In this document: positions 31,221 through 40,249 of the stretch, piece by piece
How the letters are laid out: every line of letters starts with the position of its first letter
Numbering within the stretch: position 1 is the first letter of the stretch
DNA from: Allomyces arbusculus
Taxonomy: Eukaryota > Blastocladiomycota > Blastocladiomycetes > Blastocladiales > Blastocladiaceae
Length of the DNA stretch: 62,010 nt
Direction of reading: 5' to 3'
Assembly (NCBI GenBank): GCA_027604705.1
Contig: JADHYV010000049.1
Span: 1-62,010 of the forward strand
Program-made: the position numbers and the translations under genes
The notes under the pieces: model-generated
What the model was told of the DNA's origin: nothing
Database searches by the model: none
Seen by the model: only the letters and a program-made list of their open reading frames with translations

Positions 31221-34200
31221 ATGGCCCTCGTTATTGCCGGCTTGATCGAACCGACCGCCTGCCGGCCACCGCCCAGGCTACTGTCAATTGCACGATTGCG
31301 GCATCCTCGCGGCCCGGTGGTCGCCCTCGCACTCTTGCTCGTTTCGCTGCTCCTCTCGTGCACGCCCCTCCTTGCGCGCGCACAAGCCGTCCAGTCGGCC
31401 ACCGGCTGGGGCAACAATCCCGTCAAGTCCTGGTGGGGTGCCGCGGGCCGCCCACTGTCGCGTTCGGTCGTGCCCAGCGGATTCGCCGACAACATCTCGG
31501 CCGTGACCTGGACGGCGCCGTCGCCGCGGTTGATTGCCAAGTCACTGTTTGACAATGCCGCGATCCAGGCTGCCTTGACCAACAATGGCGCACCCACAAC
31601 GTGGTCGGCATTGCTTTCTTACTTCAACGAAGTGCGTGACAGGTCATTTCTTCGCGTGCGCCCAACTTGGTACTCATTGGGTCTCGGCTGACGCGCGGGC
31701 CCGCGATCTATTGCTGAACGACAGCTCTTGTACCTCGACCTGGTCCAGCTCCAACTCGACCCGACCGCGCCTTTCCCGATCCCTGTCCCGGCATGCGACG
31801 CGACGCTTGACCCGGCCTGCACGGGCACCGTGGTCATTCAGCAGGCGCGCGCTGCGGGCAACTTTTCAGGTCCCATCAACGAATTCCAGGCCTACAATCT
31901 CGCCACAGCTTTCATCGATGCTGGGTTTCTCTACGGTTCGTTCGCTGGGTCTTGCCGCTTGTTTCTCCACCAAGCCCCGACTGACATGTCCTATTTAGGC
32001 ACGAGCACCTCGACGCAGCAGTCGCTCCGCACCCTGACCGGTGGCCTGCTCAACTTGCCCAACAACCAGCTGCCGACCGTCACTTACTCGTCACCGCGCA
32101 CGCTCGGGTCGACCGTGGTCCCCGCGTTCCAGCCCGTGGCGCTCGCCGGTGACTTGCGCATTAACAAGCATCCTGCGCTCGTAGCGCTTGTCACGATTCT
32201 CGCGCGTGAACACAACCGGAAGGCCGTGGCGCTCGCCGCGACGAACCCGACGTGGACCGACGAACAGTGCGTTCTGCTGGTCTTAGCGGGCACGACGGTG
32301 TTTGGTCATTCTTATTCCTTCGTGCGTCTCTTCTAGGCTCTTTCAAGGCGCGCGCCGGTGGGTGATTTCCGTCTGGCAGCGCACTATCTTTGACGAGGTA
32401 CATCCAACCCCACCTCCCGCACTCTTGTGTGCCACACCGCTCACCGACCTTCCACCACGGTAGACCTACGGCGCGACGATCGGGACCGGGTACCCCAGTT
32501 TCCCCGGGTACTCGAACACGACCAACCCGGAAATCGACACTTTCGCGGCCGTCTGCGCACTCCGGCTCGGGACCATGGGCCGCCAACCCGTTCTCTACCG
32601 GTACAATGACGACGGATCGGAATTCGCGACGGGCCACATTTACACGACCGGCTCGTTCACGCCGTTACCCCTCGTCAACTTTTCGGCACCCGGCGCTCTC
32701 GAAGCCGTCCTGCGCGGTTTGGTCGGTTCGGCCGAGGCGCGGATGGGGCCCGGCGCGCATACGAGTGTCGCCGCGGACCTGGCACTGATGATTCACCGCG
32801 CGCGCGACTTGGGCGTGCCGTCGTACGTGGCCGTCCGCCGCGCGCTCGCGCTCAGTGTGCCAACAAGCATGGCAGATATTTCGTCGAATGCCGGCGTGCA
32901 AGCCGTGCTCACGTCGCTTTACGGGTCGGTGGCGAATGTCGAAGGGTGTGTGGGCGCCTGGGCTGAATCGTTTGCGTCGACGGCGCGGGTGGGCCCAACG
33001 ATCGCCGCGGCCATAGCCAAACTACTCACGACCGCCTACAAGTCGGACACGTTCTACTATGCGTCGCCGACGTCCGGGTATTCGGCGAACGCGATTGCTG
33101 TGAAACAAGCGACCATGGCGTCGATTTTCGTCGCGAATACGAACTTGACCGTGTTCCCAAATAATGTCATCAATCCGGCGAATCCGCTCGTCGCGTTCAA
33201 GAATGCCACGGCGGCAACAAGTGCGGCGACGGACTTGTACGCGGCACGGACGGTGCAGCTCGAGGCCGGGACGACGCTCAACTGGACGATTGCCGAGCCG
33301 TACATCACGTTCCAGCTGGCCACATCGAATACGGGCTGGATGGCGATTGGGGTCGGCGGGTACGGGATGCCCAACACCATGGACATTGCGCTCATCACGT
33401 GGCCGACGACCGCGAACCCGGTCATTGACGACTACTACAACTCGGGCTACTCGCCATTGCGCGACACGGCGAATGGCGGGACCGCTGACCTGACCGGGTT
33501 TGCCTACATGGTCGACGCGATGGGCCGGAACCGGTACACGTGGCGCCGCCTGCTAGCGTCGGGCGATGCGCGCGACTTGAACATCACGACCGGCTATATG
33601 CCCCTTGCGTTCGCGTACGGCCCGACACCCAATCTCGCGTACCACGGGTCGCGTCGTGGTAAGACCTACGTCAATTTCTACGCGACGGCGAGCACCCCGA
33701 CCGGCACGATCGGCGGGGGGAACGGGACAACGACGCCGCCGCCACCGACCAAGTACTCGAAACCAATTGGGCTCAAGGTGCTGCACAGCTTGTTGATGAT
33801 TCTGGCCTTCTTTTTTGTAATCCCGTTCTCGGTCTTTACCGCGCGGTACTGGGCGTCCAAGAACTGGCTTGACCTGCACTTCAAGACGAGCCAATTCGTG
33901 TTTTCGCAAACCGCCTTGTCGCTCCTCTCGGCGCTCGTCGCGCAGGACGGCCAACTGTCGTCGGCGCACGGAATCTGGGGGATGGTCACGTCCGTTGGCC
34001 TCGGCCTGACGATGCTCTTGGGGATCTCCGCGAGTATGATGGCGCGGTTCGGTCGCACCGCGCAGACGTGGTCCCGCCGTCTGCATTTGCCGCTGGCCAT
34101 TGGCACGTGGTGTGTGGGCGTTTACGACTCGCTGCTAGGATGCGATGCGATCGAGAAGCTGAATCCGGCGTACAAGTGGTTCCGCGGGTTGACGTGGGCG

Positions 34201-36299
34201 TGTGTGGTTGTGGTGCTCGTGTCGCTCGTGGTCGGCGAGGTGTGGCGCGTCAAGTACGGCCGCGTCGCGATCAAGACGCTGCACAAGGTCCAGCGGCTCG
34301 CGAATTTTTCGCTGGTCGCGTCGAAATCGGGATTGCTCAAGGACGAGGACGAGTACCGCCGGCTGCCCGAATTTACATGGGCCGAATTGAATGAGAAGGT
34401 GGCGAGCGGGCGGCTGTGGCTCGTGATCGATGCGGTGATTTACGTACGTTGCGTTGGACTGTTATCCCTTGCTTTCACTGCGAACTGACCGACGTGCACC
34501 AATGTGCATAGGACGTGACGGCCTACATTGACACGCACCCAGGCGGACGCGACATTCTCCTCCGCTACGTCGGCGCCGACGCGTCGATGGCATTCAATGG
34601 CATTATGCGGTCCGCGAGCGTCACGTCGACGACCACGGCCAACACGACCATGCGCCCGCGGCACGTCTCGGCCATGCTACAGCGTCTCGTCGGCGCCAGT
34701 CCCGCAACCTCCGCGTCGGGCATGGGGCGCAGCATGTCGGCGCGGCGACTCGTCGTACACGCGCACTCGCGGCTGGCGCGGCTCAAGCTCAACACGCTCG
34801 CGATCGGCGTCCTGGCCGAGGACTCGGACGAGAAGCGGCGCGCGACCGCGGCGAATGCGGCGGTGGCCACGAATGACGAGTGGGTCGAAGGCGATCTCGT
34901 CCCGTCCTGGATCCCACGCCCGCCAGTGCTCGGTATGGCCGAGGAACAGTTCCGCCCTCTGCGGCTCGTGAGTAAAAGACGCGTGTGGGGTCCCGGCGGC
35001 GGCGGTGCCGAGCCCGGCCCAAGCCTTCTCGGTGGCCTGACCGCAGCTATGTCCCTCACGCCCGTGACTCCAACGCAACCCGCGGCGAAAGCGCACCCGG
35101 TGTACCTGTTCCGGTTCGCGTTCCCGCGCGAGATCGACGAAGTCTGGCTGAAGCCGGGCGACGCGGTGCAGATACAGGTGGCCGTCCCGAACACGACGCG
35201 GTTTGTCGTGCGCCATTTTACCCCACTCGTGTGCCACTGTGTCGGGCATATGGATTTGCTCATTCGCGTTTACCCAGACGGCGCGCTCACGTCGGCGCTC
35301 GACCAAGTGGAGATTGACGACGATGTCCTGATGCGTGGGCCGATCCGGTGCCCGAAATCGTTGCTAAAACTCGCACCGGTGGCCGTGGGCCGCACGTTCC
35401 CGGGAACCGACGACCACGCAGGTGCCGCGGTCGGTGGGTGGCCGACGGTCGTCGATGGGATGGAAGTGGACCGCGACTCGCGCGGGTGCTTTGAGACGGT
35501 TGGTTTGGTCGCGGCAGGGACAGGGATCACGCCGATGCTCTTGCTCATCGACTACTATGCGCGGTTCTGTCCGCGGGACCCGGCGACCAACCAACCCGTC
35601 GCGAAAATCACACTGCTCTACCAGGCGAGCACCGCCGCAGATTTGATCTATGCGGCCGAGTTGCAGGAGCTGGCAACGTCTCTCGCGCCGATGCTGCGTG
35701 TCGAATTTTTCCTTTCGCACGCGACACCGGCCACCGCGTCGTCGACGCTCGCCGCGGCCATACCGACCGCGGTCCCCACATCCGGCCCGATTCCAGCACA
35801 TACGGCATCGCGGATCACCAGGGACGCGTTGCGCAAGCACCTCCCGCCACCGGCGACACGCACCGCCGGTGGCACCAGCACCAATGGCGCACCCACGTCG
35901 CGCCCGCCGTCCGTATTCGCGCGCACGCTTGGCGGGGGCGGATCCGTGTCGACGGTCGGCGGCGCATCCGTGTCGGTCAACGGCACCCTGCGCCGGCGGC
36001 CGTCAGTGTCGTTTGTGCTCGGCGGCGCGCCGCCAGTCGCGTCGGTGGGGCCGCCGCAGCCGGCAGCAGACTTGGCGGACGATGCAGTGACTCCCGCGGG
36101 GACGTTGGGGCGGCGTGGGATGCCCGTGGCAGCGGTGGTGCCGGTGGTCGATGCGGATGCGACCACGACGGATTTGGGGGTGGGCGCACAGCAGGACGCC
36201 CTGATTGTGGTCTGTGGGCCGCCGGGGTTCAATACGGCGACGGTCGAGATGTTGCAGCAGTTGGGGTATGGTGGGGCGGCGAATGTCGTGGTGCTGTGA
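31221..36299 (+). CDS. Peroxidase-DOMON-cytochrome b561-cytochrome b5-reductase fusion
   Basis: Predicted 1,572-residue membrane redox enzyme. Exons: 31221-31631, 31725-31935, 31999-32266, 32337-32397, 32464-34443, 34512-36299; all phases agree. Signal peptide about 31-56. Animal-type haem peroxidase domain to about 560, with 'AFIDAGFLYG', Arg261 in 'GDLRIN' and proximal His279 in 'REHNR'. DOMON domain about 583-735, candidate haem ligands Met619 and His711. Cytochrome b561 with its four His at 758, 789, 819 and 858. Cytochrome b5 module, His986 in 'HPGG' and probably His1028. FAD/NAD(P)H reductase, 'RHFTP' at 1211, 'GTGITP' at 1313, 'CGPPGF' at 1545. The layout would carry electrons from cytosolic NAD(P)H through the membrane to outside haem domains. 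The overall function is inferred. Confidence 0.88.
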
Positions 36300-36578: not shown

Positions 36579-37595
36579 TTACTTGCCGACGACCACCCGC
36601 CCGTTGTGCGTATCCTTGGGCGCCGCGCTCGTGCCCGCAAACGATGCGGCAGCCGACGCGTCAGCCGACGCGGCCGGGGCTTCCAGCGACACGTCAAAAG
36701 ACTGGCACAGCGGGAAAGCCGGCTCCGTCAAGGTCGTGACGGCGCCGTTCCGCGGCGAGACCGAGAGCTGCAGGGTGACGTCGTTGTACGGGTCGCCGTT
36801 CCAAGAATTGATAATGACGGCAGCCGTTGGGTTGTTTTGGAGATCGGGGATCGCACGGACCGCGGAGGGGACCGCATCCCAAGTGGCCCACGTCACGTCG
36901 GCGAGCGTCAACCCGACCTCCTCGCAAGCTTTGGCGGCGTCTGCGCGCGAGGTGAAGAGACCAAACGCCGTCACGACTTTGAATATCATAGGGCACTAAA
37001 GACGGGCCGTACGATTGGGGTCGGTGAGCATGTCCGCCCCGACAAGTCGAAAACGAAAGCCAGTGTCACGACGCGCCGTACCCCCGTCGAAGAAATTTTG
37101 AAATACCCGCCGCCTCCGCGTGGCGTTTTGGCGACCGTGATTTTAAACGAGGTCGTGCTGGCGATCGGGAAGTAGCCCTTGGAGAAGTCTGCATGGGACA
37201 GGGCCGACTCGAGATTATCGTCGACCTGCATTGTGCACCAGGTTGCTGAGGGCGTCGACGTGAAGCCTACGCCCATTTTCGGTTGATACAAATCAGCGGC
37301 AAGGTCAGGAGCCCATTCCCTCGATGATGGATCGTCGCGGGCACGGTGTCAATCCACACCACGTACCCCGGTCGTGGCCATTGATCTCGATTCGGAATTG
37401 GTCGCCCGAGCAGAACGCGTCGGTGACGATCAGGCACCCTTCCTTGAAGAGCGTGACCGTGTAAGTGTCGGTCGATGTGCCCACGTTGCCGAAATCAAAG
37501 CCAATCCATTCATCGATGCTTGTCACAGGCTTGTCGGCCAGTACCGGCGCGGCGAGGGCCGCGAGAGCGAGCAGGGCAAACAGCGGCAGGAGCAT
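36579..37595 (-). CDS. Secreted VTDAFC-family protein, minus array copy 1
   Basis: Exons in reading order 37595-37367, 37266-37082 and 36995-36579 give 276 residues. A signal peptide ('LLPLFALLALAALAAPVLA') is followed by the first module ('EWIGFDFGNVG', 'GCLIVTDAFCSGDQF', 'SKGYFPI', 'GGYFKISS') encoded by exons 1-2. Exon 3 encodes 'KVVTAFG', 'ACEEVGLTLADV', 'INSWNGD' and 'FPLCQ', a pattern reminiscent of C-type-lectin-like folds. In sister copies translation starts eight codons earlier at an ATG; here that codon is GTG (37619), so the ATG at 37595 is the likely start and still leaves a signal peptide. Extracellular role, perhaps ligand or wall binding, is inferred only. Confidence 0.75.
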
Positions 37596-37678
37596 GGCCG
37601 TGCGGGTCGACGGTGCCACGGTCGGAAGTGATCAAATGTGGAAGAGCTGGTGCCGTCGGTGGTGGGTGCCAGGGCGGA

Positions 37679-37684
37679 TTTATA
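37679..37684 (-). promoter_or_regulatory. TATA element of array copy 1
   Basis: The minus strand reads GACATATAAATCC, about 85 nt upstream of the ATG at 37595. The GACATATAAA core is shared with copy 4. Confidence 0.6.
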
Positions 37685-38084
37685 TGTCGCTCAGAGGACG
37701 CTCTCAACAGGGTCCGAATCAACTGGCCATTTCGCGTTTCCGAGCGGAAATGAAAGCGTTGCGATAGCGCGGAGAGCTCAGGCCCGGGGAACCAAAGCAT
37801 AGTTCCCCTGCAGGCTGACCCAACGATCGAAGCGCTGCTGAACGGGAAAAGACCCATGAACGCTTGACAACAACTTAGTGAAGTACAGTACGACGCATCA
37901 AGCATTTTCGATTTGGAATGTCGTGATGGGTCCTGGCCGTGGCCAAGCCCATCAGCGTCTACGAATCATCAGTGCCTCGGTCACTCGAACCCGGACCAGG
38001 AATCAAATCACAGCTACGGCTTTCTTCAATACTCGTCTGCTGCTGGGTACCATTCGGCGCGGACGTCAAACATCGGGGTGCTGT

Positions 38085-38385
38085 GATAGTTTTGGCATCG
38101 CGGTAGGTTGTTCTTGCTGTTGAGGATCAGAAACACCTCACAAAGTATGCATCGGTTAAATGAATAACACTGTCCACCTTGAAATGCAAGTGTAGACGGC
38201 CTGGGAAAGATACCCTCGCAGCCCGCCGCGAAACATTGCATGTTTGGCATTGTAATCGGTTGACCTTGCTGTTGAACATCAGGCACACTTCTAAAAAGTA
38301 CGCGCCGGATCCTAAATAAGACTGTCAACCCTGAATGACAGGCGTCGGAAGTCTGGGAAAACTATTCACGCTCGATGCGAGCACA
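38085..38385. repeat. Imperfect tandem repeat, two units of about 150 bp
   Basis: Both units start TTTGGCATxG, contain TTGCTGTTGA(G/A)(G/C)ATCAG, then ACTGTC(C/A)ACC(T/C)TGAA and CTGGGAAA at matching offsets. Unit 1 is about 38085-38235 and unit 2 about 38236-38385. A partial third copy sits at 36376-36422. Confidence 0.65.
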
Positions 38386-38484
38386 TGCTCGCAAAACCCG
38401 TCAATTCGATGAGCACCACAAATTATATGCATCTCATTACACCACCACTACTTGGTCGAAGAGATCCACACACTGAATATTCGC

Positions 38485-39494
38485 TTACTTGCCAGCGTCC
38501 GATGGGCCGTTCCGCGTATCCTTTGGCGCCGCGCCCTTAGCCGCAAATGACGACTTGGCCGCAAACGACGTAGCCGAGACTGCGAGAGTCGTGGTGCCCG
38601 TGCCCGTGCCCTGGCACAGCGGGTAGGCCGGCGCCGTCAAGAGCGTGACGGCCCCGCCCGTGGACGTGACGGCCAGCTGGATGTTGACGCCGCCGTACGT
38701 GTCGCCGTTCCACGAGTTGATGACAACCGCGTCCATTGGGTTGGTGTGGATATCGGGGCTCGCGCGAACCACATCGAGGACCGTGTTCCAGTTTGCGGAC
38801 GTCACATCGGCGAGCGCCATGCCAGCTGCCTCGCATGCGGCGGCGGCGGCCGCGCGCGAGTTGACTTTCCCAGCGGACGTGACGACTTTGTATTGGACAG
38901 GGCACTGGGCGCACGATCAACCGGATGGGTGAGGATGCACGTTTCACAAGACGAGAGTAAGTGCCGTGCGCTCGCACGCCGTACCGTCGTCGAAGTCACT
39001 TTAAAGAAGGCGCCGCCAGGCTGGCCGCGTGCGGCCGTAATTTTGAACGTTGACGCGCCATTGATCGGAAAGTAGCCCTTGGAATATGCCGGGTCGACCA
39101 GGGCCGCGTCGGGGTCGCTACCGACTTGCGACGCGCACCAGGTTGCTGAGGGTGTCGACGTGAGCCCTATGTTGCAAAATGAAAAACAAGGTGGGGTCAG
39201 GCCATGCCAATAATGGCTGGAGTCGGTGCCGAGGGGCAGGAACGTGCCCTTGTCCTGGCCGTTGACGGTCACGCGGAACTGGTCACCCGAGCAGTACGCG
39301 TCGGTGACGATCAGGCACCCTTCCTTGGGCAGCGTGATCGAGTAGGTGCCGGTCGAGGAACCAACATTGCCGAACTGAAAGTTGGTCCATTGGTCAACCG
39401 TCGTATTATCGGCCAGCGCGGGCGCGGCAACGGCTGCGAGAGCAAGCAGAGCAAACAGTTGAAGGTGCATCGTGTTGCGCATCGATGGGGCCAT
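38485..39494 (-). CDS. Secreted VTDAFC-family protein, minus array copy 2
   Basis: Exons in reading order 39494-39248, 39166-38985 and 38904-38485 give 282 residues: signal peptide ('LQLFALLALAAVAAPALA'), first module ('VTDAYCSGDQFRVTVNGQD', 'YSKGYFPI', 'GGAFFKVTSTT') and the lectin-like module ('AAGMALADVTSANW', 'INSWNGDTYGG', 'YPLCQ'). The first intron has a GC donor (G|GCACGT) instead of GT. Its 81-nt length is a multiple of three with no stop, so an unspliced form would add 27 residues in frame. The promoter region just upstream of the ATG is disturbed by an assembly gap. Confidence 0.75.
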
Positions 39495-39498
39495 GCAG

Positions 39499-39710
39499 GT
39501 TAAGGGGGGGGGGGGGGGGGGGGGGGAAACGCGGGGGGGAGCTATTGATCTTGTTGGGAAGAGTGCCGGGGGGGTTTTCTTTAAAAAAGACAGCGAGGGG
39601 TGGGTATAAAAAGGGGGTGTNNNNNNNNNNGGCCTGGGGGCTCGCGTGGTCGGGTCCGTGTGGGGGGGGGGGGCGGGGGGGGGCGCGGGGGCGCCCCCCC
39701 CCCCCGCCAA
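39499..39710. other. Assembly gap with noisy flanks
   Basis: Ten Ns at 39621-39630 are flanked by long G and C runs. Sequence left of the gap (about 39539-39590) resembles sequence right of it (about 39718-39765): both read GAGCT-TTG-TCTTG then AGTGCCG and TCTTT. This suggests one promoter segment represented twice, the left version poorly read. Confidence 0.7.
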
Positions 39711-40249
39711 CGGAGGAGGGAGCTCTTGCTCTTGATGGGAGAAGTGCCGCGGCGGTTGTCTTTTATACTGTCCGAGCTGGGATGCGTTCAAAAGGGGCTC
39801 TGGGAACTGGGATGGTGCTGTTGGCAGAACACGGGCCATTCACGGACTGCCGTGCAAGCAGGCCCACGCAGTGGCGCCAAAACTGGAGGAAAAAAGAATG
39901 GGATGGTGGGACGGTGGCGCGCAAATGTGGTTTTCGTGCATTACATGTTTTCCTAGGTTGGATACGTCGTGTCCCACAGCCCAGGCACTTTGGAGTTTGG
40001 GTGAGAAATGATTGCGAGGTTGGCTATTTGCGTGTTCCATCCCGTCGTGGCCCGCGGACGTAGGTATCTGTGCTTCAGCGATGCATGACCACGATGTCTT
40101 TTTTTCCCAGGTGCCAGCGCCCAGGCAAGGTTGTGATGCCTGATGAAACGTATTGACACTGACCACGAGCCAGGAAACTCAACGTGTCCCAACAACGATG
40201 AGCATAATGTGATGGATTCAATGGTGGAGACGAGACGATTATTCTTTTA
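39711..40249. other. Intergenic region in the minus array
   Basis: Holds the TATA-like element of copy 2 at 39761-39767. The rest, about 480 nt, shows no gene or family exon that I can recognise; exons 2 and 3 expected for relic copy 3 are absent here. Confidence 0.45.
39761..39767 (-). promoter_or_regulatory. TATA-like element of array copy 2
   Basis: The minus strand reads CAGTATAAAAG. It lies 267 nt from the ATG at 39494, but would lie near 60 nt if the noisy duplicate at the gap is an artefact, matching the other copies. Confidence 0.5.

Follow-up and report, generated by a model that had tools for sequence, protein, structure and literature searches.

DUOX enzymes combine in one chain an outer peroxidase-homology domain, haems in the membrane and an FAD/NAD reductase on the inner side, and are to our knowledge the only described case of a peroxidase-like domain fused to a trans-membrane electron chain; why animals retain this domain without its distal histidine is unsettled. 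Here we describe a gene of Allomyces arbusculus, a blastocladiomycete fungus, whose product joins, from N- to C-terminus, animal-peroxidase, DOMON, cytochrome b561, cytochrome b5, FAD-binding and NAD-binding domains, and which, on its domain content, we read as resembling DUOX while lacking its gp91phox core. It lies at 31221-36299 on the forward strand (as do all of its features given below) of the window, by which we mean the whole stretch of 62,010 nucleotides that was analysed (positions 1-62010 of contig C49 in an assembly of 25.9 Mb). Each domain is known singly; the combination, in which a b561 chain carries a degraded outer domain, appears to be new as far as could be searched.

In the literature consulted, the nearest carrier of known activity is found among the CYBDOM proteins, such as plant HYP1, which have a DOMON domain outside the membrane and a five-helix b561 core. 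In Naegleria and oomycetes, ferric reductases (FRE) with a DOMON domain also have it outside the cell, joined to a membrane reductase; there, the membrane part is a ferric reductase domain and not b561, and no peroxidase domain is mentioned in the relevant passages of that report (PMC3591440). DUOX peroxidase domains are described, in sections of the respective sources, as lacking residues required for activity (PMC6411640), as is the domain of the fly protein (PMC4654585), and DUOX is described elsewhere as being without peroxidase activity (PMC4420034). Passages from fPoxDB list 0 Duox genes across the 216 fungal and oomycete genomes tabulated, and place Duox in Metazoa and one choanoflagellate only (PMC4029949).

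One gene and its relatives

Six exons splice to 1572 residues with one terminal stop. Exon 1 (31221-31631) contains the start codon, a hydrophobic N-terminus and the start of the peroxidase-like domain, and is followed by exons 2 (31725-31935), 3 (31999-32266) and 4 (32337-32397); exon 5 (32464-34443) then encodes, without a break, the remainder of the peroxidase-like domain, all of DOMON and b561, and the beginning of b5, and exon 6 (34512-36299) carries the b5 core, the FAD and NAD domains and the stop. The five introns (31632-31724, 31936-31998, 32267-32336, 32398-32463 and 34444-34511) are all GT-AG and measure 93, 63, 70, 66 and 68 nucleotides, respectively. The spliced product matches the deposited A. 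arbusculus hypothetical protein GGF31_006480 letter for letter over 1572 residues. The sole run of N in the window, an assembly gap of 10 N at 39621-39630, is outside the gene.

Pfam recognizes An_peroxidase at residues 58-547 (E 6.6e-74; 31392-33153, introns included), DOMON at residues 588-703 (E 2.2e-8, over the cut-off; 33274-33621), Cyt-b5 at residues 955-1012 (E 2.3e-15), FAD_binding_6 at residues 1172-1255 (E 5.6e-11; 35094-35345) and NAD_binding_1 at residues 1309-1370 (E 2.6e-6; 35505-35690, the first part of the NAD domain, whose C-terminal end is read from the translation at 36207-36296). Cytochrom_B561, at residues 757-877, scores 24.1 bits in a six-frame search of the genome, over the cut-off of 23, and 18.7 bits on the whole protein. 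Ahead of the peroxidase-like domain is a hydrophobic segment (residues 31-55, 31311-31385, with a hydropathy peak at residues 33-51) that is probably a cleaved signal peptide. Pfam gave no match to Ferric_reduct or FAD_binding_8 in the 1572-residue protein, only NAD_binding_6 below its cut-off (E 0.038). EF-hands, which in DUOX lie between the peroxidase domain and the membrane core, gave no match at E values of 0.1 or less. Where DUOX has a gp91phox/ferric reductase domain, this protein has b561, DOMON and b5.

Full-length orthologs with the same Pfam families occur in A. javanicus and Blastocladiella emersonii (94 and 44%, respectively, over the searched region, residues 560-1350). A paralog in the same genome, on contig C7 (392462-397360; 1496 residues, six GT-AG introns), aligns end to end with the window protein at 41%; these four proteins are the members referred to below. 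The two A. arbusculus genes agree in position and phase at their first five introns, which is partly built in because the window gene guided the choice of C7 splice sites; independently of that choice, the C7 frames break near those points, every site reads GT-AG and the model is open to one terminal stop. When the genome was searched for the animal peroxidase family and the best candidates were scored, all six exon matches fell within these two genes, and thus no free-standing animal-type peroxidase was found among them. A protein search with region 560-1350 returned four matches among 8000 scored, three of them sharing this architecture and the fourth a Tetradesmus nitrate reductase, while a search with the alignment returned 12 among 7998, the same three and nine sharing the peroxidase family alone. 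A 788-residue DOMON-to-NAD query matched none of 8000 scored, full-length relatives being outside the length window of that search. Within the length and candidate limits used, the matches listed include no deposited C7 counterpart and no A. macrogynus or Catenaria copy, which does not imply their absence, and no relative was found on virus contigs.

An earlier note on this DNA had proposed that a single gene encodes this set of domains in this order, and had named two genes joined by the assembly within 32464-34443 as one observation that would undo the proposal. Since exon 5 is one open reading frame, any such join must fall inside that frame; against it stand the orthologs in two other species and the paralog on a separate contig, all of which align end to end. 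Pfam likewise bears out the domain set and order, b561 being under its cut-off on the 1572-residue model, the note's contrast with DUOX holds in that no gp91phox-type domain is matched, and its view that the order from NAD(P)H/FAD through b5 and b561 to DOMON is topologically sensible is supported. Its further statement that it knew of no described enzyme with the full set agrees with the literature searched, in which no description of this fusion was found among top-ranked entries, mostly from non-subscription journals. One paper retrieved for containing both DOMON and heme peroxidase was set aside, as the passages concerned deal with separate diatom genes (PMC8027222).

The proposed electron-carrying core

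The part of the protein behind the peroxidase-like domain resembles CYBDOM proteins in having a DOMON next to a b561 core, recognized by the profile scores above and by fold matches on a low-confidence structure model, with four b561 histidines in the same order as in HYP1 and a DOMON Met/His pair. All six of these residues, together with two b5 histidines, are invariant in the four members. Met619 (33367-33369) and His711 (33643-33645) are the presumed DOMON haem ligands. Within the b561 core, for which five helices are predicted (residues 757-912, 33781-34248), the alignment suggests that His758 in helix 1 (33784-33786) and His819 in helix 3 (33967-33969) would hold the outer haem, and His789 in helix 2 (33877-33879) and His858 in helix 4 (34084-34086) the inner one. 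Unlike CYBDOM proteins, the Allomyces protein has the peroxidase-like domain in front and b5 and an FAD/NAD reductase behind.

The b5 domain contains an inserted stretch (residues 955-1078; 34375-34814, intron 5 included). Its first ligand, His986 (34536-34538), is in an HPGG motif that reads HPGD in the C7 paralog, and His1062 (34764-34766), in HAHSR, is the proposed second. The reductase carries GTGITPM and CGPPGF (GSGLTPM and CGPAGF in the C7 paralog), motifs whose roles we assume from general knowledge of such enzymes; with FAD_binding_6 and NAD_binding_1, they make this module a predicted NADH-cytochrome b5 reductase of the FNR superfamily. A structure model of the b5-FAD/NAD half was discarded (pLDDT 29.5). 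The NAD domain has a low-complexity insertion whose translation includes RRRPSVSF (35991-36014), a candidate kinase site. An RRRxS stretch is found in this insertion in all four members (RRRPS, RRRPS, RRRTS and RRRSS), with the C7 copy placed in a different column by the aligner; we take it to resemble a PKA/PKG-type site and treat it as a lead only.

A single-frame protein on contig C46 (L018, 1846-4713, minus strand) has b561, b5 and FAD/NAD parts in the same order as the window protein, with the four b561 histidines and an HS..A..KL motif; it differs in showing no DOMON or peroxidase match and in that b5 alone exceeds its Pfam cut-off, the b561, FAD and NAD matches lying below theirs. An open frame that we presume to be oxoglutarate-dehydrogenase-like adjoins it. 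On contig C13 (L019, 1570-4629, minus strand), a b561 open frame is preceded by repeats (VMFGGE..NEVWLL), which we take to be kelch-like, as another swap of outer domain on a b561 core.

The peroxidase-like outer domain

The state of the outer domain was judged from an alignment of 16 rows: the four members, DUOX1 from the Protein Data Bank (PDB 6wxr, assembled from two printed stretches) and 11 other peroxidases, with residue roles assigned on our general understanding of the family. The distal histidine, kept in 11/11 of the other peroxidases, is absent from DUOX1 (Ser) and from all four members (Leu, Leu, Ile and Phe); in the window protein its place is taken by Leu141 (31734-31736; LLYLDLV vs FLDHDL). 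Three further sites conserved in 9/11 of the other peroxidases are lost both in DUOX1 and in every member, namely the family Asn (replaced in the members by T, T, S and S), the GH histidine and that of RGRDHG (Leu in all four). By contrast, the proximal histidine (His279, 32211-32213, in REHNR) and the catalytic arginine (Arg261, 32157-32159) are kept in 16/16 rows. Between residue 55 (51 in A. javanicus) and the catalytic Arg there are no histidines in either Allomyces ortholog, one in B. emersonii and two in the C7 paralog. The best PDB sequence matches to the N-terminal domain, peroxinectin A (6erc, E 3.7e-37) and 8s6c (E 1.5e-51), both keep the distal histidine, and their chains (511 and 528 residues, respectively) consist of the peroxidase domain only.

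The outer domain is thus read as having an animal-peroxidase fold but as probably not being a working peroxidase. The earlier note had described the chain as ending in a haem peroxidase with recognisable cofactor residues in every domain; the carrier ligands stand, and the peroxidase claim is not supported, the distal histidine being missing. Wall cross-linking or attack on lignocellulose, which it had offered as uses, become less likely roles, since peroxidase chemistry is made less likely by the loss of that residue in 4/4 members.

In a tree of the 16 rows, the four Blastocladiomycota rows group together (100/100), and within this group the C7 paralog branches apart from the three orthologs (99/96). 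DUOX sits on a long branch at an unresolved fork, and 6/16 rows were flagged for odd composition; a common origin of the residue losses in the fungal domain and DUOX is neither shown nor excluded by this tree.

Proposed function and alternatives

We propose, with a probability of about 55%, that the protein is a plasma-membrane, NAD(P)H-driven trans-membrane reductase of CYBDOM type, capped by a domain that is probably non-peroxidatic. From the order of domains and the positions of their ligands, we infer its membrane site, haem content and electron route. Cytosolic NAD(P)H would reduce FAD in the b5-reductase module; electrons would move in turn to b5 (His986/His1062), to the inner b561 haem (His789/His858), to the outer one (His758/His819) within the same five-helix core, and on to the haem of the extracellular DOMON (Met619/His711). 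From DOMON they would reach a one-electron acceptor outside the cell; ferric or cupric ions are the likeliest and O2 is possible, a ranking made because the nearest carrier of known activity in the literature consulted is a CYBDOM metal reductase. The outermost peroxidase-fold domain would have a structural, maturation or acceptor-gating role, as in DUOX. The proposed ascorbate contacts of HYP1, Arg307 and Asn311 (seven and three residues before the fourth histidine), are not kept and correspond to Gln851 and Arg855, changes that would fit the docking of a b5 domain at this place in lieu of ascorbate. An ALO gene is present in the genome, on contig C5, which leaves an ascorbate analogue as a possible donor; it also weakens the idea, considered and dropped, that the b5 reductase replaced ascorbate because the fungus has none.

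Several observations weigh against this reading. The b561 assignment is one: the two orthologs score 20.0 and 21.5 bits, leaving all three ortholog proteins under the cut-off, and the DOMON-b561 structure model, used as weak support for the fold, has a pLDDT of 44 and a Foldseek E-value for b561 of 0.39. A PDB profile search with the b561 alignment found no b561 and two proteasome matches (E 1.1 and 1.2), and, where five membrane helices are expected in the window protein, simple hydropathy (cut 1.4) picks out no more than three. Pfam matches the peroxidase, b5, FAD and NAD domains of the C7 protein and neither its DOMON nor its b561, which were identified through alignment alone. The deposited B. 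emersonii model has no hydrophobic N-terminus, and the second b5 ligand is assigned from an invariant HxHSR motif located after the insertion. As to the outer domain, the retention of Arg261 and His279 in 4/4 members could mean a working haem site, and an earlier alignment (without PDB rows, counted by hand) placed one C7 histidine in the distal-histidine column by way of a seven-column gap; the gap-free register is favoured for C7, though its distal histidine is not a certain case.

A wider and tentative suggestion, possible but well short of even odds, is that the dual-oxidase layout arose a second time, independently, in Blastocladiomycota: a peroxidase-fold domain with lost peroxidase residues set on a b5 reductase-b5-b561-DOMON chain, which would release reactive oxygen (or reduce metals) at the surface of zoospores or hyphae and be controlled by a kinase. 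The narrower proposal that the protein is a functional counterpart of DUOX, its chain reducing external O2 to superoxide or peroxide and the pseudo-peroxidase domain shaping the outlet, we consider rather unlikely. The layout is the same, with a peroxidase-like domain outside, membrane haems, and FAD and NAD domains inside, as are the four substituted sites in DUOX1 6wxr, and the absence of Duox from the fungal genomes of fPoxDB would leave the niche open. However, the core is b561, and the CYBDOM example reduces metals. The genome also contains FAD_binding_8 genes (six matches, one of them NOX-like), and O2 reduction therefore has other candidates. DuoxA (PF10204) had no match in the genome, but none in the 14 controls either. 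The NOX-like frame, on contig C70 (L011, 3063-7055, minus strand), has 1331 residues and an FAD_binding_8 match, and by eye an EF-hand-like stretch before its membrane part.

That the chain feeds, or is coupled to, an active haem peroxidase serving wall cross-linking or substrate attack, as first suggested, is improbable. The family match is strong over residues 58-547, and the proximal histidine and catalytic arginine are kept, but the distal histidine is replaced throughout; the other three sites are lost too, though each is also missing in 2/11 of the other rows, and DUOX with like losses is described, in passages of the sources, as without peroxidase activity (PMC4420034) or the residues it needs (PMC6411640). 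Very improbable is a trans-membrane NADH:peroxide reductase, in which chain electrons would reduce H2O2 at an outer-domain haem and so detoxify external peroxide: an electron supply is fused directly to a peroxidase-fold domain that keeps its proximal histidine, but the distal one is absent, and both the path from DOMON to that haem and haem binding by the outer domain are hypothetical. The chance that assembly or gene prediction fused two genes is negligible, for although the gene model is known here from sequence alone, the same full-length protein is found in two other species and from a second gene on another contig, the gene is free of N, and exon 5 is continuous through peroxidase, DOMON and b561.

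If the CYBDOM-type reductase is correct, the protein would be a CYBDOM supplied from NAD(P)H through a reductase of its own, amenable to an oocyte assay like HYP1. With the four altered sites in common but an unrelated membrane core, the fungal protein would also provide a natural comparison with DUOX, in which the features shared would point to what the outer domain is for.

Neighbouring genes

Downstream of the gene, on the minus strand at 36579-39839, are two adjacent genes for small secreted-protein-like products that resemble each other (DEWIGFDFGNVGTSTDTYTVTLFKEGCLIVTDA and DQWTNFQFGNVGSSTGTYSITLPKEGCLIVTDA) and perhaps form a lineage family.

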